Source: Oscillospiraceae bacterium (GTDB lineage: Bacteria > Bacillota > Clostridia > Oscillospirales > CAG-272). Taken from it: a stretch of DNA of 64,000 bases. The position numbers and the translations under genes are program-made. A model generated the notes under the pieces. It did no database searches. It worked only from the letters and a program-made list of their open reading frames with translations, and was not told the DNA's origin. Shown here one piece after another: positions 231 through 49,850 of this stretch. Location of the stretch: assembly GCA_015063535.1 (NCBI GenBank), contig SVTY01000004.1, positions 62,001 through 126,000 on the forward strand. Reading direction: 5' to 3'. Positions within the stretch are counted from its first letter, which is position 1. Every line of letters begins with the position of its first letter.

Positions 231-2032
231 TGGCACTGACGTTGGAAGAGATCGTTGCCAAGCGGAAGGATCGATGGGAGAGCCTGCGGGATATCGAATA
301 CGACCGACGGCTGACCCGTGCGGCAGTAAAGGAAATTCTGCAAAATAAGGAGCTTCGGGATATCGTTACCCGCAAGCCCTATCTGCTCATTGAGGTTGCC
401 TTCAGCGTGGTGGATAAGGAAAAGCATACGGTACCGTTTTTTCTCAACGAGGTACAACGGGATTTTCTTGCCGAGCTGGAGCAAAGAGGGACGGACAAGC
501 CGTACTTTATCCTGAAGGGACGGCAACAGGGCTTTACCACTCTGATCACCGCCATACAGCTTGCCTGTTCGGTGGTACAAAAGAATTTTTCGGGCTTTAC
601 GATTGCCCATCGGAGGGACAGCACCAAGGCGATCTTCAATGACAGGGCGCGGGTGGTGTATCAACGCCTGCCCGATCAGCTGAAGCCACATGAGAAATAC
701 AATTCGGCGGACGAGCTGTTCTTCGACCGTCTCAATTCCTCATGGCGGGTCGAGACGGCATCGGAGGATGTGGCAAGAGGGATGACCCTGAATTTCGTCC
801 ACCTGTCCGAGGCGGCATTTTACAGCTGTGATTTTTCCCTCTTGCAGGCATCGGTGGGTGAGGCGGCGGCAGCGGGAGCGGCGGTGATCTACGAAACGAC
901 GGCGAACGGCTTCAACCATGCCAAGGAGCTGTGGGATAGCGGCGCCTGTCATACGCTGTTTTACGGCTGGTGGCGGACGGCGGAATACCGCAGACAAGAT
1001 GCGCCTCCTGCCGAGGCGGTCGATGGGTGGCTTGCCGAGAGACTGCGGCTTCTTGCCGAGCGGGGGCTGGATGAGGCGCAACGGAATTGGTATGCGCACA
1101 AGTACGCCTCGTATCTCGATAAAAGTCTGATACGGCAGGAATATCCCTGTACGCCGGAGGAAGCCTTCCTTTCGGGCGGAGAGTGTATTTTCGACAAGGA
1201 GGCGATCCAGTCTTGGCTTCTGCGGCTGGAGCAAAAGCCGAAGGGGCGGACGGGATATTTTACTTACAAGAAAACGGGCAGGGAGATCCGCAATTCGGCG
1301 GGCGAGACGGTGGATGTGGAATGGAGCCTGACCGATATCGCCTTTGTTGAGGACAAAAACGGATATATCACCCTGCATGAGGAGCCCCGTATCAAGAAAA
1401 ACGGAGAGGGGCAGACGGTCGCACTGGCACCGTATACCCTTGGCGGCGATACGGCGGGGAGCGGTACCGACTATTTTACGGGCAAGGTGGTGTGCAGTCT
1501 CGACCGCAAAACGGCGGCAACGCTCCGTAAGCAACGGATGGATGAGGATCTGTATGCCGAGCAGATGTACTGTCTCGGCAAGTACTACCACGATGCCCTC
1601 ATCGGAATCGAGACCAATTACAGCCGTCAGCCCACCCGCCTGCTGGCATCGGTCTACCGCTATCCCCATCTGTATCTGAGGGAGCGGTTAGATCGGCTGT
1701 GCGAAACAGTAGAGCAGGTACCTGGCTTTGAGACGACCGCCAAAACAAAGCCCGTCATTATCGGGGAATTGGTCGCCGAAATGCGGGAGGATGTAACCCT
1801 TGAGTGTGACAGGGAGACCCTGAAGGAAATGACGGTCTTTGTCAAGAAGGACAACGGCCGCATGGAGGCGGTTCAGGGCATGCACGACGATCTTGTGATG
1901 GCGCTTGCCATTGCGCATTTTATCGGAACGCAGCAGAGACGGACATGGATCCCCGCCGATACGGGAGAGAAGGATTTTATTACCCGCAATTTCTCGGAAG
2001 ACGGCGACTCGGATGCCTTTATTACGTGGTAA
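230..2032 (+). CDS. phage terminase large subunit
   Basis: ATPase-like FILKGRQQGFTTLITA, nuclease-like GGDTAGSGTDYFTG; position before portal. Confidence 0.9.
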   Translation: MALTLEEIVAKRKDRWESLRDIEYDRRLTRAAVKEILQNKELRDIVTRKPYLLIEVAFSVVDKEKHTVPFFLNEVQRDFLAELEQRGTDKPYFILKGRQQGFTTLITAIQLACSVVQKNFSGFTIAHRRDSTKAIFNDRARVVYQRLPDQLKPHEKYNSADELFFDRLNSSWRVETASEDVARGMTLNFVHLSEAAFYSCDFSLLQASVGEAAAAGAAVIYETTANGFNHAKELWDSGACHTLFYGWWRTAEYRRQDAPPAEAVDGWLAERLRLLAERGLDEAQRNWYAHKYASYLDKSLIRQEYPCTPEEAFLSGGECIFDKEAIQSWLLRLEQKPKGRTGYFTYKKTGREIRNSAGETVDVEWSLTDIAFVEDKNGYITLHEEPRIKKNGEGQTVALAPYTLGGDTAGSGTDYFTGKVVCSLDRKTAATLRKQRMDEDLYAEQMYCLGKYYHDALIGIETNYSRQPTRLLASVYRYPHLYLRERLDRLCETVEQVPGFETTAKTKPVIIGELVAEMREDVTLECDRETLKEMTVFVKKDNGRMEAVQGMHDDLVMALAIAHFIGTQQRRTWIPADTGEKDFITRNFSEDGDSDAFITW

Positions 2033-15005: not shown

Positions 15006-18000
15006 ATGGCATATAAAACACGGCAACAGATCTATCAAGAAAATCTGGCAAGGAGAGCCGGATATCTGAAATCTCCCGCGCAGCGCAGAGCCGAAGCGCA
15101 GGAGCGTCTCAGAGCGGCGCAAGCCGCCAAGCAGGCACAGGCGCAGGAGGTGGAGACAAAGATCAAGGCGGCATCTGAAAATGTCAATCCGATCTGGCGA
15201 ACCTTATCAACGGTAAATCGTGTTCATGGCAAGGTCGCCACGGGTGCGTTGGGGGCGATCGAGGGCTTGGTCGATACGGTGATCGGCATCGGCGGAGCGA
15301 TCGGCGGTGTCTTTGACGACGACATTCAAGAGGGGGCGCAGAAGATCATCGCCTACAACGCCACCGAGGAATGGGTGGGCAAGCACATCGACGAGCTGAC
15401 CAAATATTCCTATACCGAAGGAAACAAGGTCGGCGAGATCATCGAGGGCGTGGCATCGGGCGTGGGTCAGATGCTTCCCACTGTGGCGGCGGCAGCCATT
15501 ACGGGCGGCGGCTCGTTGGCAACCACAGCGGCAACCAAAGCCGTCAGCCTTGGCGTCACGGCAACCAGTGCCGCAGGCAATGCCATGCAGGATGCCTACA
15601 ACGAAGGCGCCGACTACTATCAGGGTCTTGCCTACGGCGCCACCAGCGGTGCTTTGGAGGCGGTCACCGAAAAGCTCTCGGGCGGAACCATCGGAAGGAT
15701 CACAGGCGTGGGCAAGGGCTTTGCCGATGATGCACTGAAGAACGTGGGCAAAACGGGCATTGCCCGCATTGCCAAGGAAGCCGTCGGCGAGGGCGTGGAG
15801 GAAATGATCACCGAAGCGGCAAGCCCTGCCCTGAAGAGCATTTACAAGGGAAGAGAGGGGCTTCGGGAATACGGCACGCTCGAATTTTACGGACAGGTGG
15901 GAGAAGCGGGCCTTGTGGGTGCTCTGACCTCCGTGGCATTCGGACAGACGGTCGGCAGAGCCACTCTGCGGGGCGGCAATGCGGACATCAACGAAGCATT
16001 GGAATCCATCCGAGAGATCGACCAAAAGACCGACAAGCGGATCATCACCTCCGATCTGACCGAGCGGGATATGGAAAGCATATCCCGGGCAAAGGGAGAA
16101 AACTATCGGAATATCGAGCAGGTGCTGAAGAAGATGGACGGCGAAAAGCGGGCGAAGATGATGACCCGCTACGGCTTTGACGGTATGTTCGATTCCGATG
16201 GCACGCTGAGAGCTGATTTTGCCGCCTCCAACGGCTTTTCGGTATCGGATGGGAAAGTGGTCGCCAACACGCAGAACCGTGTCACAGAGGCAAATTTACG
16301 CTATGTGGCACCGTCTCTGCGGAACAACCGCACCCGCATTGCCGAGGACTTGGCGGCGATCAATGAACGCCGCAGCGAGGGAAGCGCTCCTGTTGCGGTG
16401 TTCGGCGGTACGCTGTCCGCCGAGGGCGAGCAGGCATACAGCCGCTTGAAGGCGGCTGTGGCGAAGCTGAACCGCAAGGCGAACAGCCGTATCAATGTCA
16501 CCGTCGTTACCGCCAACCCCGATTTCCAAGGCGTCTCCGTGCAAAAAAATAACATCTACATTGCTGCAGATGTGTTGGAAAACACCGCCCTTGCTGAACA
16601 GCTTGCCAAGCAAGTCGAGCAGACGGAGCAAACCGAGCAAGACACAGCTCTTGACAATTTCGCCGAGGTGAGGTATAATAGAAAAAGCGATACCGAAGAT
16701 TTATATACCGCTACGGATGCTTTTGTAAAAGAGGTTCACTATGTGGACAGGCATTCCTTCGCACGAAGTCTTGCCAATAAAACCTCCGATATCCAAGAGG
16801 GCGAAACCAAGAATTTACATATTTATTGTGCTAAGAATATTTATGTATTTGAAGCAGTCGGATACATGCAGGGTACGATGATTTTTTCGGTAAGTACGGA
16901 TGCAAAAAAACAAAAAGAAAAAGAGAGAGGGAGATTTTATTATGGCACTGACCGAAACCGAAAAGAAACTGATTTTGGAGCTGGCAGAAACCGTATTGAG
17001 CGAGGACGATCAAATCACTACACTGACAGTTTTGCAAACAGAGGAACAGAGAAAGCAAATGATTCGCTTCTTGCAGGAGAATCCCAACGCAACAGAGCAG
17101 GAGATTTTGAAAGAAGAAGTGAGGCTAATCAAGATACACGGGAAGAAGTAGATAGAATTGTTCATGAACTTCGGAAAAAATATGGAGAGGATTCAGCGCA
17201 AACAAATAAAATAAGAGATACCGCCGACCGAATTAACGGCCTTGAGCGCCCCAAACCAAACGAGGGTTACGCTCTAACAAACGGTATCTCTGATGATAGT
17301 ATATCAGATTCTTCCGAAAAAGTCAATACCGATTCGAAAAAAATTTCACATACCCCTATCAACACCGACCACGCCGTGAAAACGCTGATCCACGAAACGA
17401 CCCACTTTGAAGAGGGAACGCCCGAATATTACGAGTTCATTCGTTTCCTTGCCGAGGATGAAAGTCTGATCGAGGAAACGATCCAAATGCTTACCGAAGA
17501 AAAGACAGGGTATGGCTTTACCAAGGAGCAGGCGAGTGTCGCCATGCAGAAGTTCGAAAACGGCGAGAAGCTCACCGAGGCGGAGCGGGAATTTATTTCC
17601 GAGCTAAACGCCCACGCCTCCGAGAAGCTGCTGGGCGGCAGTCAGGCGTTCATTGAAAAGTTAATACGGGGCGACAGCACACTGGCAGAGAGGGTGCTGG
17701 GCCGCATCACCGACGCTAAGGCGGCATTGGAGAGCCACCGTTCCCCCACCGCCCGAGGGCAGTATCTGCGCCTGAAGCGTGCGGAGCAACTCTATATGAA
17801 AGCCATTTCCGCCGCCGGTATGGGGTACTACAATGGTAAGATTACGGTGAGGGAAGAAGAGGAGCAGAAACAGTACAATAGAAAAACTCAGATAGATGAT
17901 CGGTTACAAATAGAAGTTTTGCGATCTATTGGCAGAAAGAGTATCAATGATTTTACATCGGAGGATATTCAAAAGACAGAATATTGGGCGAGAAAGTTCT

Positions 18001-21000
18001 ATGCGGAGCTTGGAACAAAATCGCCATTTTTCCGTGCGCAGTTTGGTGATTGGAGAGCACATGATGCGACACCCATTCAATTGATACCGATCACCACTAT
18101 CAACGTAGAAAATGCTCTTTCGAATATGCCAACAGGAATCTTTTCAAATAATGATGCTGGCTGGAATATTTCTGTTGGTAGTCTTGGGAAAAATGATACC
18201 GTCAGCCATTCAGGCAGAGAAAAGATTTCTGTAAAAATGCTTTCGGAAATCAAAAAAATTATTGAAAGTGCTGTCCTTCTCGATACCGAAGTATCTGTAA
18301 AGGATAGTTCTAAAAAACACAATGAAACTGCTTTTATGCATAAGCTTTATGCTCCTGTTGTCTACAACGGACAGCACTACATTGCAAAAGTAACAGTTGA
18401 AGAGTATGGAAGCAATGAATCAAGCAAGCGTTTTTACAACCTTCGAGGCATAAAAATAGACCTTGCCGGCGGTACCCCGAATGCAAAAGCATCCTACGGC
18501 ACAGTGCCAAACACAAGGTCTATAAATAGTATAGCAGACCTGTTTGCCTTTGTCAAGGAGTATGATAAAAAATTTTCTCCCAAGCCTGTCAATAAAATGC
18601 TTTTGAATGTAGATGGAACACCCAAGGTGATGTATCATCAGACGGAAGAGAGATTCGATGGTTATAATCCTGATATCAAATTTTCCCGAAAAGAAACTGC
18701 GGAAACCGATTTCTTGGCAGAGGCGAAACGTTCCAACGAGAAAGTCACGATGACCAAAGGACAGTTGGAAAAGCAACGTGCCAATCTGTATGGCGAAAAA
18801 GTATTTAGCAAAAAGGATGTTGCCGAAGCGGTGAACGACATTGAAATTTTGGAGAAAATCGGAAAGAACATTGCCGATCGGAAAAGACCTGAGCTTGAGG
18901 CACAGCTGGCGCAAGCGAAAACACAAAAAGAAAAAAGGGCAATTGAAACAAGAATAAAATACTTAGAGCAAAATGCGATTGCTGAAATGCGGAACAGATT
19001 GACTGACCATTTGTGGACGGGCTTCAACCAAAGACGAGATTCGCAAGCATATGAAAACTACGCCGAGATCATGTATAAAAAAATACATGCCGAATTTATG
19101 AGCGAAACAAACCATGATATGGATACCGATGAAGTTTGGGAGATGGACAGGCAGATCGGACAGGCATTGCGGACGATCATCAAGTCCGGCAAGCTTTCCA
19201 AATATGAAACCAAAATGCTGGAAACAACGGCGGCATATTGGCGAGATCAATACAGGCAAGGTCAGGAACGCACCAAGCTTCTCGGTACGCTGATGAATCA
19301 AACGCAGAAGCTCAAGGAGCTGAAATCGGGAGCCTTTCTGAATGCCTCCGTGTACAAAAGCGACGTGTTCAAGTCCACCGTCGAACAGCTATCACGGATC
19401 AATTATCGGGGCAATCTGAATGTCATGGGTACTCGGAAGCTCATTGCCGATCTGCTTGACTGGTATCAAAGCGATAATCCAATGCTTGGATATGTGGACG
19501 AAGCGAACACCGGCTATTTCCGACAGGAAGTGGCGGATGCCATGCGGATGATCGCCGAGGGCGATAAGGGCTTGAGCAATCAGGAGTTGCAGATGCTCGG
19601 TGAGGTGATCCTGCCGCATTGCATATTCATTGTGGAAAATTTCAACAAGGTCTACCGAGAGGGCAAATACATCGAAGCCATGCCCTTGGCAAAAATGTAC
19701 GTCAAGAAGCTGCAAGCCATGAAGCATCGAAAGGACGGCTTGACCAAAAAGTATCTGCGTACCTTTGGCGATCCCGCCTCTCTGATGCGTTATGCCGACG
19801 GCTATGACCCGAACGGATTCTTTACGCAAACCTTTGAGGAGCTCCGAGAGGGAGCGATCGGCGCCTCCGTGACAGAGAGGGAGCTGTTGCGGGAATTTGA
19901 AGCCTTCCTCCATGGAAAAGGGAAGGGGGACTATCGCAAGCATCTGGAAAAGGATACCGTCACCTATCTCGGCAAAGAGATGTCTGTCCGCCATGCCATC
20001 TGCCTGTATATGACACACAAGCGAAAGCAGGCGGTAAAGGGATTGTGCCTGTCAGGGATCGAATTGGAGATTGACGGCAATCGTGTGCGCCTGCCGGCAT
20101 TGATCGCAGAGGATGGAAAAAAGCATTCTGCGCAAGAAATGCAGGCAACGGTGGATGCCTCCGCTGCGAAACTGCTTGAACAGTTCTCGGAGCAGGACAA
20201 GAAGCTGATCGAGATCATGGAAAAAAGCTTTGCTCGGAGCTCGACTTTAAAAGAAAATACCGATAGGAAGCGTTTTGGATTTTCCAACGTGTTAAAGAGT
20301 GGCTATTATTTCCCAATACGTCGGGCAAACGTAGCGCATAATGTGGACGAGAGCTTTTTTGCAGAGGTCGACCGTGTGACGCATCTCGGATTTAATAAAG
20401 ATACCGTGCAGGGAGCGGCGGGAGCTTTGCTGATCGAACCGATCGACACAGTATTTACCCGCCACATGAGAGGAATTGCTATGTATGCGAACTTGGCGAT
20501 TCCTACCGACAATTTCAACCGCTTGCTGAACTTGAACACGGAAAGCAATCACAATCTGCCGATCAGTGTTCTTTCCGAGATTCAAAGCACAGCCGTAAGC
20601 ACAGAAATGTTCAAATACCTCAAGGAGCTCAAAGAGAGCATTGAAGGGGTCAACCGCTCCGAACAGAGTGCCAAGTGGTTCAACCGTGCTGTCGGTCATA
20701 TTCGCAGCGGCTTTGCCAAGTTCCAGCTCGGCGCCAATGCGAAGGTGCTCATCACCCAAACATCTTCTTTATTTGCCGCAACAAGTGTGCTGGACTATGA
20801 TTGTGTCGTCAAGGGACTTGCGATCCAAAACGCCTATGCCGAGGTCGATACATACTGTCCGCTTGCCATGGTGAGAAATTCGGATAATACCGTTGCGCTG
20901 GCGCAGGGTGTTTTGGATAAGACGGGGAAGGTCGGAGATATCATCATGAAGCCGATTGGTGCTGTCGATCGCTTGGTGGTTACCCGCTTATTCGGTGCTT

Positions 21001-22475
21001 GCCAATATCAGATCGAAAAGAACGGCGGTGCCAAGGTCGGAACGGTGGAAAACAAGCAAGCCGCCGGAGAACTGTTGAAAAAGGTGATTTTGGAAACCCA
21101 GCAGAATGCCTTGGCAACCGAACGCTCGGCGGCAATGCGGAGCAGCAATGAGCTGTTGCGATCACTCCCCATGTTCACGGCGGATGCTATGAAGGTATTT
21201 GGTCGTGTTCTCGATTCGTTCGGAGAGGTCAAAACACTCCGTGCGCTGTTGAAGAATCCGAACATATCCGAGTCAGAGAGAGATGCCGTGCGCAAGCGTC
21301 TGAAAGAAGCTGAGCGGAACCTGAGAAAATCGGTCGGCGCATTGATGACAAACGCCTTGTATATGGCACTGATCGCATATTTCTTTCAATGGCTGTACCG
21401 AAAAAACAAGGACGAGGAGCCGGAGGAGCAGGTATTGGCTGTGGCGTTGGATTTTGTGGGAAATATGATCGGCGGCTTGCCGATCCTCAACGATGTGTAT
21501 TCCTACTTTACCGACGGATATGAGGTGAGCAATTTCTTTTACAGTGCGCTGAACGATACGCTGGAGGGTGCAAACGCCCTCAAGGAGCTGGCAATGGCGG
21601 CGGCATCGGGAGAGGAGATATCCAAGCAGGATATCGCATCGAGTGCCCGCAAAGCGATCTATGCCGCCTGTCAGCTCTTGGGACTCCCCGTGAGAAATGC
21701 CTACAATCTGACGGCAGGAATCATCGGACATCTTTCTCCGTCTGCCGGCTATTGGCTGGATGACCTCTTTTACAAGCAAAGCTACCGTTCCGATCTGAAG
21801 GAAGCCATCGAAAACGAGGATGAAAAAATGATCGCCACGATCGCAGGACTTCTGACCGATGCGAATATCGGCGGACAAAGCAAGACCGTTCGTGCGGAGG
21901 TCAGCGGCTTGGTCGCAAAGGGATATACGGGCGTTCTGCCCCGAAGCCTTGGCGACACCGTGACCTATGACGGAGAGCAGATCGAGCTGACAAAAGCGCA
22001 GAAAAAACGATTCAGGGCGATCTATGACATTGCCGATGAGAGCGTTGAGACGCTGGTGACGCTGTCCTTGTATCGGGAGGCGGAGGATTCCGTCAAAGCC
22101 AAGGCGATTCGCTGGATCTATGACACTTACTATTTTTTGGCGATGTCGGATGTGCTGGGGATCGAAAGCAGTAAAAATGTTCTGCTTGCGGAAGCCATCG
22201 ACATAGAGAAGCTGGCGATTATCCTCTGTACCGCCCGAAGCATTGAGGCGGACAAGGATCGCTCCGGCAAGTCGATCCAAGGATCGAGAAAGAAAAAGAT
22301 CATTGCCTATATTGAATCCATGCGGCTTTCCGCCGCACAAAAACACATTGTCCTCGGTAGCTTGGGATACAAGCAGACACAGGGAAGGGATAAGGTACAG
22401 GCGTATATCAACACACTGAATCTGACTGCCGACGAGAAAAAAGAGCTGTTGAAATACAGCGGATACGCAGCGTAA
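15006..22475 (+). CDS. large phage polyvalent protein (2489 aa): membrane-active N-terminus, HExxH metallopeptidase, LPD-type modules, truncated ART-like segment, C-terminal TM domain
   Basis: LIHETTHFEEGTPEYYE (17391-17405 = HETTH); GTKSPFFRAQFGDWRA...NISVGSLGKNDTVSHSG...AFMHKLYAPVVYNGQHYIAKVTVEEY resembles large-polyvalent-protein-associated domains; KVMYHQTEERFDGYNPDIKFSRK. Confidence 0.8.
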   Translation: MAYKTRQQIYQENLARRAGYLKSPAQRRAEAQERLRAAQAAKQAQAQEVETKIKAASENVNPIWRTLSTVNRVHGKVATGALGAIEGLVDTVIGIGGAIGGVFDDDIQEGAQKIIAYNATEEWVGKHIDELTKYSYTEGNKVGEIIEGVASGVGQMLPTVAAAAITGGGSLATTAATKAVSLGVTATSAAGNAMQDAYNEGADYYQGLAYGATSGALEAVTEKLSGGTIGRITGVGKGFADDALKNVGKTGIARIAKEAVGEGVEEMITEAASPALKSIYKGREGLREYGTLEFYGQVGEAGLVGALTSVAFGQTVGRATLRGGNADINEALESIREIDQKTDKRIITSDLTERDMESISRAKGENYRNIEQVLKKMDGEKRAKMMTRYGFDGMFDSDGTLRADFAASNGFSVSDGKVVANTQNRVTEANLRYVAPSLRNNRTRIAEDLAAINERRSEGSAPVAVFGGTLSAEGEQAYSRLKAAVAKLNRKANSRINVTVVTANPDFQGVSVQKNNIYIAADVLENTALAEQLAKQVEQTEQTEQDTALDNFAEVRYNRKSDTEDLYTATDAFVKEVHYVDRHSFARSLANKTSDIQEGETKNLHIYCAKNIYVFEAVGYMQGTMIFSVSTDAKKQKEKERGRFYYGTDRNRKETDFGAGRNRIERGRSNHYTDSFANRGTEKANDSLLAGESQRNRAGDFERRSEANQDTREEVDRIVHELRKKYGEDSAQTNKIRDTADRINGLERPKPNEGYALTNGISDDSISDSSEKVNTDSKKISHTPINTDHAVKTLIHETTHFEEGTPEYYEFIRFLAEDESLIEETIQMLTEEKTGYGFTKEQASVAMQKFENGEKLTEAEREFISELNAHASEKLLGGSQAFIEKLIRGDSTLAERVLGRITDAKAALESHRSPTARGQYLRLKRAEQLYMKAISAAGMGYYNGKITVREEEEQKQYNRKTQIDDRLQIEVLRSIGRKSINDFTSEDIQKTEYWARKFYAELGTKSPFFRAQFGDWRAHDATPIQLIPITTINVENALSNMPTGIFSNNDAGWNISVGSLGKNDTVSHSGREKISVKMLSEIKKIIESAVLLDTEVSVKDSSKKHNETAFMHKLYAPVVYNGQHYIAKVTVEEYGSNESSKRFYNLRGIKIDLAGGTPNAKASYGTVPNTRSINSIADLFAFVKEYDKKFSPKPVNKMLLNVDGTPKVMYHQTEERFDGYNPDIKFSRKETAETDFLAEAKRSNEKVTMTKGQLEKQRANLYGEKVFSKKDVAEAVNDIEILEKIGKNIADRKRPELEAQLAQAKTQKEKRAIETRIKYLEQNAIAEMRNRLTDHLWTGFNQRRDSQAYENYAEIMYKKIHAEFMSETNHDMDTDEVWEMDRQIGQALRTIIKSGKLSKYETKMLETTAAYWRDQYRQGQERTKLLGTLMNQTQKLKELKSGAFLNASVYKSDVFKSTVEQLSRINYRGNLNVMGTRKLIADLLDWYQSDNPMLGYVDEANTGYFRQEVADAMRMIAEGDKGLSNQELQMLGEVILPHCIFIVENFNKVYREGKYIEAMPLAKMYVKKLQAMKHRKDGLTKKYLRTFGDPASLMRYADGYDPNGFFTQTFEELREGAIGASVTERELLREFEAFLHGKGKGDYRKHLEKDTVTYLGKEMSVRHAICLYMTHKRKQAVKGLCLSGIELEIDGNRVRLPALIAEDGKKHSAQEMQATVDASAAKLLEQFSEQDKKLIEIMEKSFARSSTLKENTDRKRFGFSNVLKSGYYFPIRRANVAHNVDESFFAEVDRVTHLGFNKDTVQGAAGALLIEPIDTVFTRHMRGIAMYANLAIPTDNFNRLLNLNTESNHNLPISVLSEIQSTAVSTEMFKYLKELKESIEGVNRSEQSAKWFNRAVGHIRSGFAKFQLGANAKVLITQTSSLFAATSVLDYDCVVKGLAIQNAYAEVDTYCPLAMVRNSDNTVALAQGVLDKTGKVGDIIMKPIGAVDRLVVTRLFGACQYQIEKNGGAKVGTVENKQAAGELLKKVILETQQNALATERSAAMRSSNELLRSLPMFTADAMKVFGRVLDSFGEVKTLRALLKNPNISESERDAVRKRLKEAERNLRKSVGALMTNALYMALIAYFFQWLYRKNKDEEPEEQVLAVALDFVGNMIGGLPILNDVYSYFTDGYEVSNFFYSALNDTLEGANALKELAMAAASGEEISKQDIASSARKAIYAACQLLGLPVRNAYNLTAGIIGHLSPSAGYWLDDLFYKQSYRSDLKEAIENEDEKMIATIAGLLTDANIGGQSKTVRAEVSGLVAKGYTGVLPRSLGDTVTYDGEQIELTKAQKKRFRAIYDIADESVETLVTLSLYREAEDSVKAKAIRWIYDTYYFLAMSDVLGIESSKNVLLAEAIDIEKLAIILCTARSIEADKDRSGKSIQGSRKKKIIAYIESMRLSAAQKHIVLGSLGYKQTQGRDKVQAYINTLNLTADEKKELLKYSGYAA
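16651..16679 (+). promoter_or_regulatory. perfect consensus sigma70/A-type promoter inside polyvalent ORF
   Basis: TTGACA (16651-16656), 17-nt spacer, TATAAT (16674-16679). Confidence 0.5.
16942..17151 (+). CDS. overprinted small gene (69 aa) in +1 frame within polyvalent ORF
   Basis: SD-like AGAGAGGGAG then ATG; MALTETEKKLILELAETVLSEDDQITTLTVLQTEEQRKQMIRFLQENPNATEQEILKEEVRLIKIHGKK looks like a folded helical protein; host frame here is R/N/S-rich low complexity. Confidence 0.55.
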   Translation: MALTETEKKLILELAETVLSEDDQITTLTVLQTEEQRKQMIRFLQENPNATEQEILKEEVRLIKIHGKK

Positions 22476-22479
22476 AAAA

Positions 22480-22502
22480 GGGGGAACCGTTCAGGTTCCC
22501 CT
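22480..22502 (+). terminator. terminator after polyvalent gene
   Basis: GGGGAACC-GTTCA-GGTTCCCC hairpin. Confidence 0.65.
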
Positions 22503-22582: not shown

Positions 22583-22611
22583 TTGACAAATTCACACAGT
22601 GATGATATAAT
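22583..22611 (+). promoter_or_regulatory. consensus promoter for antitoxin RNA
   Basis: TTGACA (22583-22588) N17 TATAAT (22606-22611). Confidence 0.85.
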
Positions 22612-22617
22612 TAAAAA

Positions 22618-22700
22618 CAGAGGAGCACCGATGACGGTTGCTTCTCCAGTTAAGTTAAAATAACCGCCTTGGTTCGAAGCAGAGGCGGTTATTTCTTTTT
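22618..22700 (+). ncRNA. candidate type I antitoxin antisense RNA (~80 nt)
   Basis: Starts 7 nt after -10; ends at 12-bp perfect stem AAATAACCGCCT/AGGCGGTTATTT plus CTTTTT; antisense to 3' end of toxin transcript. Confidence 0.7.
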
Positions 22701-22772
22701 ATGATCGATGTATGTGAGTAGGGCAAGTATAAATCCTGCAATCAGGAACAACTGCTCGATCGTCAAGTACAT
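22689..22772 (-). CDS. type I toxin-like 27-aa membrane peptide (holin-like toxin family)
   Basis: MYLTIEQLFLIAGFILALLTYIDHKKK; SD GGGGAGGTG 7 nt upstream of ATG; promoter TTGACA N17 TATACT on minus strand at 22913-22885. Confidence 0.75.
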   Translation of the reverse strand: MYLTIEQLFLIAGFILALLTYIDHKKK

Positions 22773-22934
22773 TGGCATCACCTCCCCGTTTTGTCGGGAA
22801 GGCAAAAAGAAATCTGCGTTCCCGAGAATCGGGAAGCAACCGCCACCGAAATTTGGTGTCCCTCTGGGCATTACTGCCATTCATAGTATAACACAGTCAA
22901 GCGGATTTGTCAAGAGAAAACCGCACAAAAGGGA

Positions 22935-22960: not shown

Positions 22961-23254
22961 TCATACAGTTGGCACAGCACACTCGACCAGAAAATCTTCC
23001 AGTACATCGGGAAGTTGGTTCGGATCAAGCTGCTTTGCGGTGCAGAGGTCGGCAAGCCGTTCGATTTCCTCGAAGTCGGTGGAGACATCTGACACAAAGG
23101 CAATTTCTTCCTCGGTTGTTCGAACGCTGATGGCGTATGACACGTAGGTGCCAAGCTCGTCCGAGTGAAGTGTTTCCTGTACCGGGACATACCGGTAGTG
23201 CGGCGTGCGCCGGAAAACAAGGTTGGGGTGTGAAGAATTGTGTTGTTTGGACAT
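22961..23254 (-). CDS. DUF6514-like protein
   Basis: 97 aa; TYVSYAISVRTTEEEIAFVSDVSTDFEEIERLADLCTAKQLDPNQLPDVLEDFLVE. Confidence 0.6.
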   Translation of the reverse strand: MSKQHNSSHPNLVFRRTPHYRYVPVQETLHSDELGTYVSYAISVRTTEEEIAFVSDVSTDFEEIERLADLCTAKQLDPNQLPDVLEDFLVECAVPTV

Positions 23255-23335: not shown

Positions 23336-25102
23336 CCTGAAGGATTACCTATGATGATAGCTGTCGTGCTTTCTTCCAATATTCGGCGGATGATCCGAGA
23401 CCGTGTGCTGGTGCGAAAGCCGGTCGGGATCGAGGCGGCTGGTAGTATGGATCTGCTGTTCACCGACAAAACGGGTACACTTACCGAGGGAAAAATGAGT
23501 GTCGGGGGAATTGTATTGTCCGACGGAAGCCGCTATGATTCTTACCGTGCCTTGCAAAAAAACGCCAAGGAGATCGCTGAATTGTATGCTCGCTCCTGTC
23601 GGCTGAATACAGCCTCACAATGGTCGGAGGGGGCGGTTTTGGGCGGAAATGCTACCGACCGTGCCCTGTTGGAGTCGGTTTCGGCGGGAAAGGGAGAAAG
23701 GCTCCCTCTTGTCCGAGCCCGCATTCCTTTTGACAGCACAAAAAAATTTTCGGCAGTTTCGGTGGGAGACGGTCGGCTCACCTTGGTTAAGGGAGCCCCC
23801 GAGCGTTTGCTACCGCATCTGCGGTACGCCTACGATCGGGAGGGGCGGATCGGTTCCTTTTCCGGCTGTGCCTATGAGCTGATGAAGCAGGTCAATGCCA
23901 TGACCGCTTCCGGCGGACGGGTCATTTTTTTGGCAGAAGGCGATCATTTGCCGGATCAAGCCGGCTTTGGAGAGTTGACTTTTCTTTGTGCCGTGCTTTT
24001 ACAGGATCGGATCCGACCCGAAGCCAAGCGATCGGTCAGAGAGCTTCAGGGAGCGGGTGTTCGGGTGGTCATGATTACAGGAGACAATCGGGATACGGCA
24101 GGAAGCATTGCCAAGCAGTGCGGGATATTAGAGCACTCCACCGATCTGATCGTCACGGGAGAGGAGCTTGCCCATATGTCGGATGAGGAGCTGAAGCGAT
24201 GTCTTCCCAGACTTGCGGTCGTAGCTCGGGCACTGCCTACTGACAAGAGCCGATTGGTTCGGGTAGCGCAGGAAATGCAGCGTGTAGTGGGAATGACGGG
24301 AGACGGTATCAACGATGCCCCTGCCCTGAAGCGAGCCGATATCGGCTTTGCTATGGGAACGGGGACCCGTGTGGCACAGGATGCGGGGGATATTATCATT
24401 TTAGACAACAATCTGTCCTCCATTGCCCGTGCGGTATTGTATGGACGCAATATATTCAAAAGCATCCGTAAGTTCATCACCCTACAACTCACCATGAATT
24501 TTTGTGCTGTGGGTGTATCCATGATCGGACCCTTTGTGGGCATTGATGCGCCTGTGACGGTGGTGCAGATGCTGTGGATCAACATTATCATGGACACCTT
24601 GGGTGGCTTGGCATTTGCGGGGGAAGCACCTCTGCCGTCCTGCATGAAGGAAAAGCCGAAGCGGCGGGAGGAGCCGATCCTGAATCGTTACATGATCAAT
24701 CAGATCGTTCTGCTCGGCGGCTTTACCATCGGTTTGTATCTGACCTTTTTGCTCTCTCCCACCTTTACCGTTTTATTTCGGAATACCCCCGATCAGCTCT
24801 GTCTTCTGACTGCCTTTTTTGCCCTTTTTATTTTTACCTCCGTGTTCAATTGCTTCAATTGCCGAACCGACCGCTTGCGGCTTTTTGCGGGGATCGGCGG
24901 CAATCGTACCTTTTTGCTGATTATGATCTTGGTCTGTGCCGTTCAGCTTTTGTTCGTCTATTTGGGAGGCACGGTGCTTCGCACCATGCCTCTTACCGCC
25001 GACGAGCTGGGGTATACCTTATTGACGGCACTGTCGGTCTTTCCGGCAGAGCTTCTCCGCAAGCTCCTTTGGCGCATACGGGGAAAAAAGCAAGGTTTTT
25101 GA
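23336..25102 (+). pseudogene. P2-type Ca2+-transporting ATPase, 3' part only (interrupted at PEGLP; first in-frame ATG 23351)
   Basis: In-frame CCT GAA GGA TTA CCT ATG ATG = PEGLPMMIAVVLSSN; DKTGTLTEG, MTGDGINDAPALKRADIG; A-domain and TM1-3 missing. Confidence 0.85.
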
Positions 25103-47147: not shown

Positions 47148-49850
47148 ATGAACTTTTGCCCGAACTGCGGTCAACCCATGCAAGGACGGTTTTGTCACAA
47201 CTGCGGCTTTGACAGTGAAAAAGAGAAGAAAAAAATGACCCTTCCCGAGCCAATACTTCGAATTTGGAAAAAGGTTAAGGCAAACTGGAAGGACTATGTT
47301 ACGATTGCCGTTACATGTGTGGCACTCCTTGCTTTTATAATTGCTTTGATCGTTGTTATTTCCAATAAATTCCGTTACAGGGTAGTAAAACAAATTACCT
47401 TCGATATGCAGAAGGAACAAGTGGAGGAGCTTTTGGGTGAGCCAGACGATATCTCCTCAGAGGAGGATACATGGTATTATTACGAAAAGAAATTCAACAA
47501 AAAATTTCAAAAGGCGGAGGCTCTGCTGAATTCCGAAAACGAATCCGATTGGGAAAAGGGATTGGTTTTGTACGATGAACTGATGACCAAATATGAATCC
47601 GAAGATTCTTTTGCCTGTATCATGGTTCGCTTCGGAACCGATGGCGTGATCGAGGTAATGCTGGACAAGGAGCATCATTATGTGGTGGATGAGGATTATT
47701 CCACCGAAGCAAAGGTATTGAAAAAAACCGAGCTGATGCTGGAATCCATTGAGTATAAGATACAGGTTGCCGCCGACGGAACCGAGCAGGGAACCCTTGC
47801 CACGAGTACAAGTAAGCTTGGCTACACGGCACGTTTTAAGGGTGGCAGCTATAGGATGAATTATACCCGTAATCCGAAATTTGAGCCGGATGAGAGTTAT
47901 ACCAATGTCACCGTGACATGGGAGGATGAGTGGAAAGAATATACTGCGACCAAATCGGCGACGGCAATATGTGATTATACGATAGAATCCGGCACGCTGG
48001 TTTCTTGGAAAAATCCACAGGGGGAGATCGTGATTCCCAACAAGGTTATACGGATCGGTGCAGAGGTATTTGAAAACTGTACGGAGATCACTAAAATTGT
48101 GATACCGCCGACGGTAACGGATATTGACTCAACTGCTTTTTCTGGATGTACCGGTATTACCGAAGCTATTATCCCTACGACCGCTATTAAATGTATTCCG
48201 AAGGATAATTTAAAATCGGTTACAATTAACGGTGGGAAAACAATTGATGGGGGTGCATTTGACGATTGTGTAAAATTGACGAGCATTACGATACTCAACA
48301 GCGTGACGAAAATTGGCGGTTATGCCTTTGACGGTTGTACAGGCTTGACGAGTATCACAATACCCGACAGCGTGACGGAAATTGGCAATGGTGCATTTAG
48401 AGATTGTACGAGTTTGACGAGTATCACGATACCCGACGGCGTGACGGAAATTGGCTACAATGCCTTTAGCGGTTGTACGGGCTTGACGAGTATCACGATA
48501 CCCGCTGGCGTGACAAAAATTGGCGAGCGTGCATTTTACGGTTGTACGAGCTTGACGAGTATCACGATACCCGACAGCGTGACGGAAATTAACTGGAGTG
48601 TATTTAGCGGTTGTACGAGCTTGACTAGTATCACGATACCTGACAGCGTGACGGAAATTGGCGAGTATGCATTTAGCGATTGTAAGGGCTTGACGAGTAT
48701 TACGATACCCGACAGCGTGACGTCAATTGGCGGTGGTGCATTTAGCGGTTGTACGAGTATTGTTGAAGCAACTATGCCCACCTCTGCCATTTCATCTGTT
48801 CCGAAAGATAATTTAACCTCGGTTACGATTAACGGTGGGGCATCAATTGGCGGTTTTGCCTTTAGCGGTTGTACGGGCTTGACGAGTATCACGATACCCG
48901 ACAGCGTGACGTCAATTGGCGATAGTGCATTTAGCGGTTGTACGGGCTTGACGAGTATTACGATACCCGACAGCGTGACGGAAATTGGCGGTTTTGCCTT
49001 TGACGGTTGTACAGGCTTGACGAGTATAACAATTCCCGATAGTGTGACGGAAATTGGCAATGGTGCATTTAGAGATTGTACGAGTTTGACGAGTATCACG
49101 ATACCCGACGGCGTGACGGAAATTGGCTACAATGCCTTTAGCGGTTGTACGGGCTTGACGAGTATTACGATACCCGACAGTGTGACGAGTATTGGTTCTT
49201 CTGCGTTCGAGGGTTGTACAAATCTTGTCTTTAATACATACGATAAAGCAAAGTATTTGGGAAATGAAACCAACCCTTATTTTGTACTGGTGAAAGCAAC
49301 CGATACCTCCATTACATCATGTACCATTCCTTCGAATATGAAGGTTATTTATGGTTCTGCATTTGAAGGTTGCACGAAATTGACGAGTATCACGATACCC
49401 GACAGCGTGACGGAAATTGGCAATGAAGCATTTAAATCTTGTAGGGGCTTGACGAGCATAACAATTCCCGACAGCGTGACGGAAATTGGCGGTTCTGCAT
49501 TTGAAGGCTGTACGGGCTTGACGAGTATTACGATACCCGACAGCGTGACGGAAATTGGCGGTTCTGCATTTGAAGGATGTACGGGTTTGACGAGTATTAC
49601 GATACCCGACAGCGTGACGGAAATTCTCAATAATGACTTTAACAGTTGTACGAACTTGATGAGTATTACCATACCCGCTGGCGTGACAAGAATTGGAAGT
49701 TGGGCATTTTACCATTGTACGAGATTGACGAGTATTACCTTCCAAGGAACAAAGGCACAGTGGAATGCTGTTTTTAAGGAACAATATTGGGATTCCCGGA
49801 CAGGCAACTATACCGTTCACTGTACCGACGGCGACATAGCAAAATCATAA
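47148..49850 (+). CDS. zinc-ribbon, single-TM protein with BspA-like LRR_5 repeat ectodomain
   Basis: CPNCGQPMQGRFCHNCG; TM VTIAVTCVALLAFIIALIVVI; SmpA-like DMQKEQVEELLGEPDDI; many CTGLTSITIPDSVTEIGGSAFEG units. Confidence 0.85.
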   Translation: MNFCPNCGQPMQGRFCHNCGFDSEKEKKKMTLPEPILRIWKKVKANWKDYVTIAVTCVALLAFIIALIVVISNKFRYRVVKQITFDMQKEQVEELLGEPDDISSEEDTWYYYEKKFNKKFQKAEALLNSENESDWEKGLVLYDELMTKYESEDSFACIMVRFGTDGVIEVMLDKEHHYVVDEDYSTEAKVLKKTELMLESIEYKIQVAADGTEQGTLATSTSKLGYTARFKGGSYRMNYTRNPKFEPDESYTNVTVTWEDEWKEYTATKSATAICDYTIESGTLVSWKNPQGEIVIPNKVIRIGAEVFENCTEITKIVIPPTVTDIDSTAFSGCTGITEAIIPTTAIKCIPKDNLKSVTINGGKTIDGGAFDDCVKLTSITILNSVTKIGGYAFDGCTGLTSITIPDSVTEIGNGAFRDCTSLTSITIPDGVTEIGYNAFSGCTGLTSITIPAGVTKIGERAFYGCTSLTSITIPDSVTEINWSVFSGCTSLTSITIPDSVTEIGEYAFSDCKGLTSITIPDSVTSIGGGAFSGCTSIVEATMPTSAISSVPKDNLTSVTINGGASIGGFAFSGCTGLTSITIPDSVTSIGDSAFSGCTGLTSITIPDSVTEIGGFAFDGCTGLTSITIPDSVTEIGNGAFRDCTSLTSITIPDGVTEIGYNAFSGCTGLTSITIPDSVTSIGSSAFEGCTNLVFNTYDKAKYLGNETNPYFVLVKATDTSITSCTIPSNMKVIYGSAFEGCTKLTSITIPDSVTEIGNEAFKSCRGLTSITIPDSVTEIGGSAFEGCTGLTSITIPDSVTEIGGSAFEGCTGLTSITIPDSVTEILNNDFNSCTNLMSITIPAGVTRIGSWAFYHCTRLTSITFQGTKAQWNAVFKEQYWDSRTGNYTVHCTDGDIAKS
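48270..49760 (+). repeat. tandem 69-bp coding repeats (23-aa LRR units)
   Basis: Near-identical gacgagtatYacgatacccgacagcgtgacggaaattggc units. Confidence 0.9.

Follow-up and report, generated by a model that had tools for sequence, protein, structure and literature searches.

A probable type I toxin-antitoxin module family of gut Clostridia with a predicted tail-gated toxin mRNA and a leader-mimic antitoxin

Introduction

Knowledge of type I toxin-antitoxin mechanisms in Gram-positive bacteria rests on a few systems of B. subtilis, Enterococcus, Staphylococcus and Clostridioides. In par/fst (pAD1, Enterococcus), as at the locus described here, convergent toxin and antitoxin RNAs meet at a terminator common to both strands; in par/fst, however, it is to the toxin 5′ region that the antitoxin is complementary, through direct repeats. 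The B. subtilis pairs txpA/RatA and bsrE/SR5 resemble the locus described here in being convergent and overlapping at their 3′ ends, in lying on prophage-like elements, and in encoding small transmembrane (TM) toxins with the Shine-Dalgarno (SD) sequence held in a stem. No conformational change of the SD has been reported upon binding of RatA or SR5 (PMC6562991), while a change of SD structure is predicted here. For bsrG, which encodes an established type I toxin (PMC6562991), binding of the antitoxin SR4 is reported to change the SD region, which RatA binding is reported not to do (PMC6562991), and to lengthen the stem around the SD from 4 bp to 8 (PMC6562991, PMC4147584); SR4 makes contact with helix P1 in its 3′ part (PMC6562991, PMC7430163, PMC4147584). 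Long-distance 5′-3′ pairing combined with local SD-masking hairpins is also a likeness between our locus and aapA/IsoA of Helicobacter or hok/sok; in AapA3, the full-length mRNA is inert because of the long-distance helix and becomes active upon 3′ truncation (PMC6733600).

Here, we analyze a window of 64,000 nucleotides from an Oscillospiraceae bacterium, in which an original prediction, made from the letters alone, had placed a type I locus of the txpA-ratA class at the right end of a prophage. The convergent type I architecture held, but the closest characterized system is bsrG/SR4 and not txpA/RatA, because RatA is reported to leave the SD region unchanged while SR4 changes it, and because bsrG mRNA has a 5′-3′ helix of the same kind. 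The locus shares with bsrG/SR4 a Hol_Tox peptide, a convergent antitoxin over the 3′ part of the mRNA, a long 5′-3′ helix and a prophage location. It differs in the length of the antitoxin, 180 nt there and about 85 nt here, in the position of the antisense terminator at the toxin stop codon, and in a leader switch of four segments, whose predicted effect is larger (5.4 vs. 2 kcal/mol).

Results

A putative toxin gene and a convergent antisense RNA gene

Each predicted element was found in its place: the two promoters, the ORF of 27 aa, the stem around the SD, the antisense RNA together with its terminator, and the 5′-3′ complementarity (window coordinates below).

22885..22913, minus strand: toxin promoter TTGACA-N17-TATACT with an extended -10 (TG); read directly and by promoter scan
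about 22878, minus strand: start of the toxin mRNA, inferred from the promoter
22867..22878, minus strand: 5′-terminal hairpin of the toxin mRNA, GGCAGUAAUGCC, 4 bp at this locus
22802-22781, minus strand: SD stem CCTTCCCG-ACAAAA-CGGGGAGG, read directly
22781..22787, minus strand: Shine-Dalgarno GGGGAGG, read directly
22689..22772, minus strand: toxin ORF, 27 aa, MYLTIEQLFLIAGFILALLTYIDHKKK; by translation, with KKK-stop codons overlapping the antisense U-tract
22583..22611, plus strand: antitoxin promoter TTGACA-N17-TATAAT with an extended -10; read directly and by promoter scan
22619..22700, plus strand: antisense RNA (antitoxin), about 82-85 nt; covariance model R1 (82.5 bits) and alignment A1
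22659..22700, plus strand: antisense terminator, an 11-bp stem AATAACCGCCT/AGGCGGTTATT followed by a U-tract; by conservation
22481..22501, minus strand: strong intrinsic terminator, an alternative 3′ end of the toxin mRNA; by terminator scan

The two promoters were the best of the region in the scan, with scores of 12/12 and 11/12, and shuffled sequences averaged 1.0 sites of at least 9/12. The leader of the toxin mRNA measures about 106 nt (about 105 nt in the original prediction), and 5′-terminal stems of at least 5 bp occur in 73% of the loci of the family described below, compared with 34% of shuffles.

The 27-aa peptide matches Pfam Hol_Tox (PF16935) at 19.6 bits (E 8e-4), below the gathering cut-off of 23.3 bits, and an NCBIfam search returned only a weak match to ComI (13.6 vs. 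55 bits). The proposed likeness to holin-like toxins is also seen at homologous loci, where 24 of 51 peptides match Hol_Tox at E<=0.1, the best at 6e-8, and B. subtilis BsrG matches the same family at 34.5 bits, above the cut-off. Pfam provides a better link to BsrG than a direct hhalign comparison of the family peptides, which reached 14% probability. The peptide resembles a toxin of the Hol_Tox kind, predicted to be a single-helix membrane protein. Among the open-access papers searched, only two name Hol-Tox or PF16935, and both are, judged by their titles, surveys of phage or prophage genomes.

As anticipated, the plus-strand RNA would end in a terminator stem, of 11 bp rather than 12 bp. 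The conservation of this stem was reached in 0 of 500 shuffles, the opposite strand of the same DNA makes a weaker terminator, and the non-Watson-Crick pairs of the stem favor G-U on the antisense strand by 187 to 59. On this comparative sequence evidence, the stem is selected in the antisense RNA. The KKK, KKR or KKN end of the peptides corresponds to the antisense U-tract read backwards (AAAAAGAAATAA), so that the tail of the toxin, its stop codon and the terminator of the antitoxin are all encoded by the same stretch of DNA. The toxin mRNA had been proposed to end at the hairpin at 22647-22613: the hairpin is present, but it is a weak terminator with a weak T-run directly after it, and a stronger terminator lies downstream at 22501-22481, which leaves the 3′ end uncertain.

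A long helix joins the two ends of the toxin mRNA

The original prediction had noted that a 10-nt segment near the 3′ end of the toxin mRNA is the exact complement of a leader segment. These segments (CGGTTGCTTC and GAAGCAACCG) are indeed present, but they are part of a much longer helix of about 27 bp, formed between the first ~45 nt of the toxin mRNA and its 3′ tail.

22855..22865, minus strand: helix 5′ strand a, AGAGGGACACC; pairs with 22619-22629, with one A-C mismatch at this locus
22832..22848, minus strand: helix 5′ strand b, CGGUGGCGGUUGCUUCC; pairs with the tail at 22629-22644 and includes segment X (below)
22619..22645, minus strand: 3′ tail of the toxin mRNA, helix 3′ strand and target of the antitoxin 5′ region; by RNAduplex and alignment

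The antitoxin is complementary to the 3′ part of the toxin mRNA, and its first 26 nt are a near-identical copy of the toxin-mRNA leader. The repeat is inverted, and the antitoxin 5′ region has the same sense as the leader, which it mimics, unlike in par/fst; at the window locus we did not find an antitoxin complementary to the 5′ leader through direct repeats.

At the window locus, the helix has an RNAduplex energy of -42 kcal/mol. Across loci, the mean energy is -46 kcal/mol with each mRNA's own tail, weakening to -36 when the tail comes from another locus and to -23 when it is shuffled; the same calculation for SPBc2 bsrG mRNA yields -41, compared with -25+-4 for shuffles. In an alignment of 50 related toxin mRNAs (A2), the consensus helix pairs GGAGAGCACC-(ATAAA)-CGGTGGCGGTTGCTTCC with GGAAGCAACCGTCATCG-GTGCTCTCC, with a conserved unpaired patch of 5-6 nt on the 5′ side only. 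Paired cells make up 92.3% of the helix, a value that falls to 35-61% when the alignment is slid by 1-3 columns. Both sides have changed in 18 of the 26 pairs, including 9 of the 10 family pairs of strand a, and cells with changes on both sides number 89, compared with 29+-4 in shuffles and reached in 0 of 500, a count not to be read as a probability since related loci are not independent.

Where pairs depart from Watson-Crick, G-U exceeds A-C on the toxin strand by 226 to 54, with much of the excess supplied by two conserved G-U positions; this asymmetry argues that the helix was selected as RNA, within the toxin mRNA, and not as a DNA repeat. Comparison among the loci thus places the 5′-3′ helix under selection in the sense RNA. 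The existence of the helix further implies that the toxin mRNA reads through the terminator that it shares with the antisense RNA.

The tail is predicted to weaken SD sequestration

Among the leader segments, X and X2 are C-rich and resemble each other; their two G-rich partners are X′ and the SD itself. The segments below were defined by folding and covariation.

within 22832..22848, minus strand: segment X (GCUUCCC), alternative partner of the SD
22819..22825, minus strand: segment X′ (UCGGGAA), pairing with X2 (anti-anti-SD) or with X
22795..22802, minus strand: segment X2, CCUUCCCG, anti-SD, pairing with the SD (the stem listed above) or with X′

In folds predicted without the tail, the SD pairs chiefly with X or X2 and is 94% paired on average, whereas with the tail X is withdrawn and X′ competes for X2. 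By thermodynamic folding, which leaves out co-transcriptional kinetics and pseudoknots, the SD opens at a mean cost of 10.9 kcal/mol when the tail is missing; a scrambled tail leaves this value at 10.9, and the full-length mRNA requires 5.5 (12.0 and 4.0 at the window locus). The cost is lower by more than 1 kcal/mol at full length in 71 of 75 loci and higher by more than 1 in none. In a subset of 41 loci, it is 10.8 kcal/mol when the whole antisense-covered region is removed and 7.0 with the tail of another locus. The SD is unpaired at 17% on average in the full-length fold, compared with 6% without the tail; since it is still mostly paired at full length, the predicted ON state is only a weaker lock. 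The X′:X2 pairing covaries, while X:SD and X2:SD covary weakly, less than the long helix and without positional specificity, as a slide by +1 pairs equally well. The helix is thus predicted to weaken SD sequestration, and the direction of the switch is itself a prediction of the folding model.

For SPBc2 bsrG, removal of the tail raises the SD opening cost from 10.0 to 12.0, and deleting still more of the mRNA lowers it again. This agrees with the published effect of SR4, suggesting that the module family works, by prediction, like bsrG/SR4: there, antitoxin binding tightens SD sequestration, and here loss of the tail, and with it of the 5′-3′ helix, is computed to do so. The likeness does not extend to the RNA family as modeled in Rfam. 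The window locus scores 15.2 bits with BsrG RNA (RF01412), against a threshold of 55, and a scan of the host genome with the same model gave 0 matches, while the B. subtilis control was matched.

The best-known role of 5′-3′ pairing in type I toxin mRNAs is to hold the OFF state (PMC6733600), and the same module could be read in that way, with a full-length mRNA that is inert as in hok or AapA, activation by 3′ trimming, and an antitoxin whose action is confined to the trimmed mRNA or runs through RNase III. Either a standby site close to the 5′ end or the antitoxin might, in addition, be blocked by the long helix. We consider this unlikely, since the energy calculations take the opposite sign, the cost falling in 71/75 loci where a helix that masks the SD at full length should raise it, and since bsrG, the nearest relative, has the sign proposed for tail gating. 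In addition, the target of the antitoxin is the tail itself, so that a trimmed mRNA would lose much of the antitoxin site.

A further reading of the same module, in which the helix mainly protects against RNases, the antitoxin works through RNase III decay only and the SD effects are incidental, appears quite improbable. A 5′-terminal hairpin and a closed end would stabilize the mRNA, and the report on RatA already cited is in line with an antitoxin that spares the SD region; against this, the calculated SD effect is large, consistent over divergent loci and abolished by scrambled tails.

The module recurs in gut Clostridia

Rfam models at the gathering threshold matched no family in the window, and a relaxed search gave sub-threshold matches only, among them BsrG at 15 bits. 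The search of other genomes that the original prediction had proposed was run with a covariance model of the antisense RNA (R1, built from 29 sequences), and the module was found in many gut Clostridia. R1 matched 132 of 398 genomes of the host's family (E<=0.001), 81 of 300 genomes of the order and 31 of 400 of the phylum (both E<=1e-4). Scanning named genomes for an exact pattern yielded 58 stretches, of which 56 are titled Clostridia, Oscillospiraceae, Ruminococcus or uncultured bacterium, mostly metagenome-assembled genomes from the gut of ruminants or other herbivores; the pattern matches in a Burkholderiales genome (L108) and in Chitinophaga (L154) have no R1 match and were set aside as chance. 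BLASTn against phage and plasmid records gave a single match, of 42 nt, in a Lactococcus phage.

Over 151 distinct loci, the layout of antisense promoter, toxin promoter, SD and short TM ORF ending at the antisense terminator is kept. The antisense promoter and the paired segments, which the original prediction expected homologues to retain, are both conserved. The antisense promoter scores 12/12 in 94 of the 151 loci and at least 11/12 in 122, compared with 5 of 735 control stretches; the 29 seeds of R1 had been chosen with a loose promoter requirement, the remaining loci without it. The toxin promoter reaches at least 11/12 in 67 of 99 loci (0 of 99 when shuffled) and has an extended -10 in 61 of 75. 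A suitable ORF with an SD was detected automatically in 105 of 151 loci. The peptides are diverse, with 25% mean column identity, and mostly share a hydrophobic segment and the KKK/KKR/KKN end.

Several variants were observed. At one place (L167:779-2450), a toxin-antitoxin module of 332 bp is present five times in tandem, and as many as 14 copies of the antisense RNA occur in other genomes of the order. One subfamily lacks a dedicated SD for the toxin start (MVTYEALF...); in most of its members, this start falls within an upstream ORF that is out of frame and has a strong SD, which suggests, by analogy with mok/hok, translational coupling.

1501-1586 (-), 1507-1589 (-), 1501-1587 (+), 1498-1580 (+), 1519-1603 (+), 1847-1929 (+): antisense-RNA matches of this subfamily, in L055, L047, L068, L059 and L049

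About a dozen of the 151 loci keep a near-perfect antisense promoter with no detectable toxin ORF or leader partner. From their sequences, such orphan antitoxins appear to be recurrent; they have a precedent in the orz-only loci of E. coli zor/orz, where an antitoxin RNA gene is likewise kept without a toxin (PMC11264685), the sequences being unrelated.

L048:1515-1604, L141:4994-5082, L182:1501-1582, L158:3625-3708: examples of orphan antisense RNA genes

Prophage setting and paralogues

The proposed prophage right end was confirmed by an attR core and by joining the flanks, which restores a continuous P-type ATPase frame of 904 codons.

23336..23343, no strand: attR core CCTGAAGG, the prophage right end inside the P-type ATPase gene; by flank joining

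The left half of the ATPase gene ends at 50.9 kb of contig C8 in ...GTTCCTGAAGG, and the right half begins at window position 23336 (CCTGAAGG). The insert measures 34.4 kb, carries a 470-aa serine recombinase at its left end and holds the toxin-antitoxin locus about 420 bp inside its right end. Between the locus and attR lies a DUF6514 gene (PF20124, E 3e-8; 22961-23254, minus strand), a possible prophage cargo gene. On the other side, a prophage protein of 2489 aa containing a "large polyvalent protein-associated" domain (PF18798 LPD3; 15006-22475, plus strand) ends 108 bp before the antitoxin promoter. Elsewhere in the window (47148-49850, plus strand), a protein has many leucine-rich repeats of the SIG..AF.GC..L..I.IP.SV type, whose near identity suggests a recent expansion.

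The host genome (1.67 Mb, 22 contigs) contains five antisense RNA genes of the family. Three accompany a complete toxin gene, in the window, at C10:118 kb and at C11:66 kb, the last encoding a different peptide (MEFVTWRDLIEIALLTFAILSVFYSKKR), and two are orphans, in which promoter and RNA persist and the toxin start is gone. One orphan (C8:51107-51191, equivalent to L208:2108-2192) lies at the prophage left end, beside the serine recombinase and about 10.9 kb left of the window; with the window locus at the right end, there is thus one antitoxin gene per prophage end, an arrangement that sets this orphan apart from the orz-only loci. Its promoter is perfect (TTGACAAATTCACACAGTGATGATATAAT) and identical to 22583-22611, and its predicted 5′-region duplex with the window toxin mRNA reaches -47.6 kcal/mol, compared with -67.1 for the cognate antitoxin. 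Identical copies of the orphan are present in the IMG/VR contigs L205 and L207.

The position at a prophage end, and the description of Hol_Tox as a "putative holin-like toxin", would also suit a peptide that serves as a lysis holin or other small membrane protein of the prophage, with the antisense RNA as a timing control rather than part of an addiction module. This is very unlikely: only three IMG/VR contigs matched the module, two of them carrying this same prophage end at 99.97-100% identity, most sampled loci are on bacterial contigs, and BsrG, from the common Pfam family, is an established type I toxin (PMC6562991). That the inverted repeat on either side of the locus is a DNA feature, the terminal repeats of a small mobile element with coincidental RNA readings, could account for a multicopy unit of about 260 bp whose ends are inverted complements, found in five genome places and in tandem arrays elsewhere, but this is hardly tenable and was rejected on the G-U:A-C asymmetry in the sense RNA, with the one-sided unpaired patch and the consensus promoters outside the repeats in almost all loci also against it.

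Discussion

The locus combines an ORF for a hydrophobic peptide, with SD and promoter, and an antisense gene whose own promoter and terminator are indicated by conservation, and it is very probably a type I toxin-antitoxin module. As a whole, it is probably best explained as a Hol_Tox (BsrG-like) type I module with a tail-gated toxin mRNA and a leader-mimic antitoxin; tail gating itself, which draws on folding models and on the analogy with bsrG, we regard as somewhat better than an even bet. According to this model, the minus-strand mRNA made at the right end of the serine-recombinase prophage would encode the 27-aa membrane peptide. As long as the tail is absent, in the nascent mRNA, or occupied by the antitoxin, X or X2 of the leader would pair strongly with the SD. 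Once the tail pairs with the leader, X would be withdrawn, X′ would compete for X2, and SD sequestration would weaken, making the toxin translatable. The antitoxin, through a 5′ end that resembles the leader, would capture the tail, so that the leader locks the SD again, and the duplex of antitoxin and tail would be a substrate for RNase III. By analogy with described systems, we infer toxicity, expression, RNase III decay and a role in prophage maintenance.

More tentatively, the loci could represent a large undescribed RNA family of Bacillota, in which the completed 3′ tail licenses translation and an antitoxin copied from the leader steals that tail. If so, tail-gated toxin mRNAs with leader-mimic antitoxins would be a general design, of which bsrG/SR4 is one member and which is opposite in sign to hok/AapA, and orphan leader-mimic RNAs of prophages and hosts would also be able to silence related modules in trans. 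To the few systems on which mechanisms have been worked out, our analysis adds a family sampled at more than 100 loci of uncultured gut Clostridia, together with a natural record of covariation in a toxin-mRNA fold, with which the sign of the 5′-3′ interaction becomes directly testable. The antitoxin-only copies, one of them at the other end of the prophage, raise the question of cross-silencing between resident and incoming modules.
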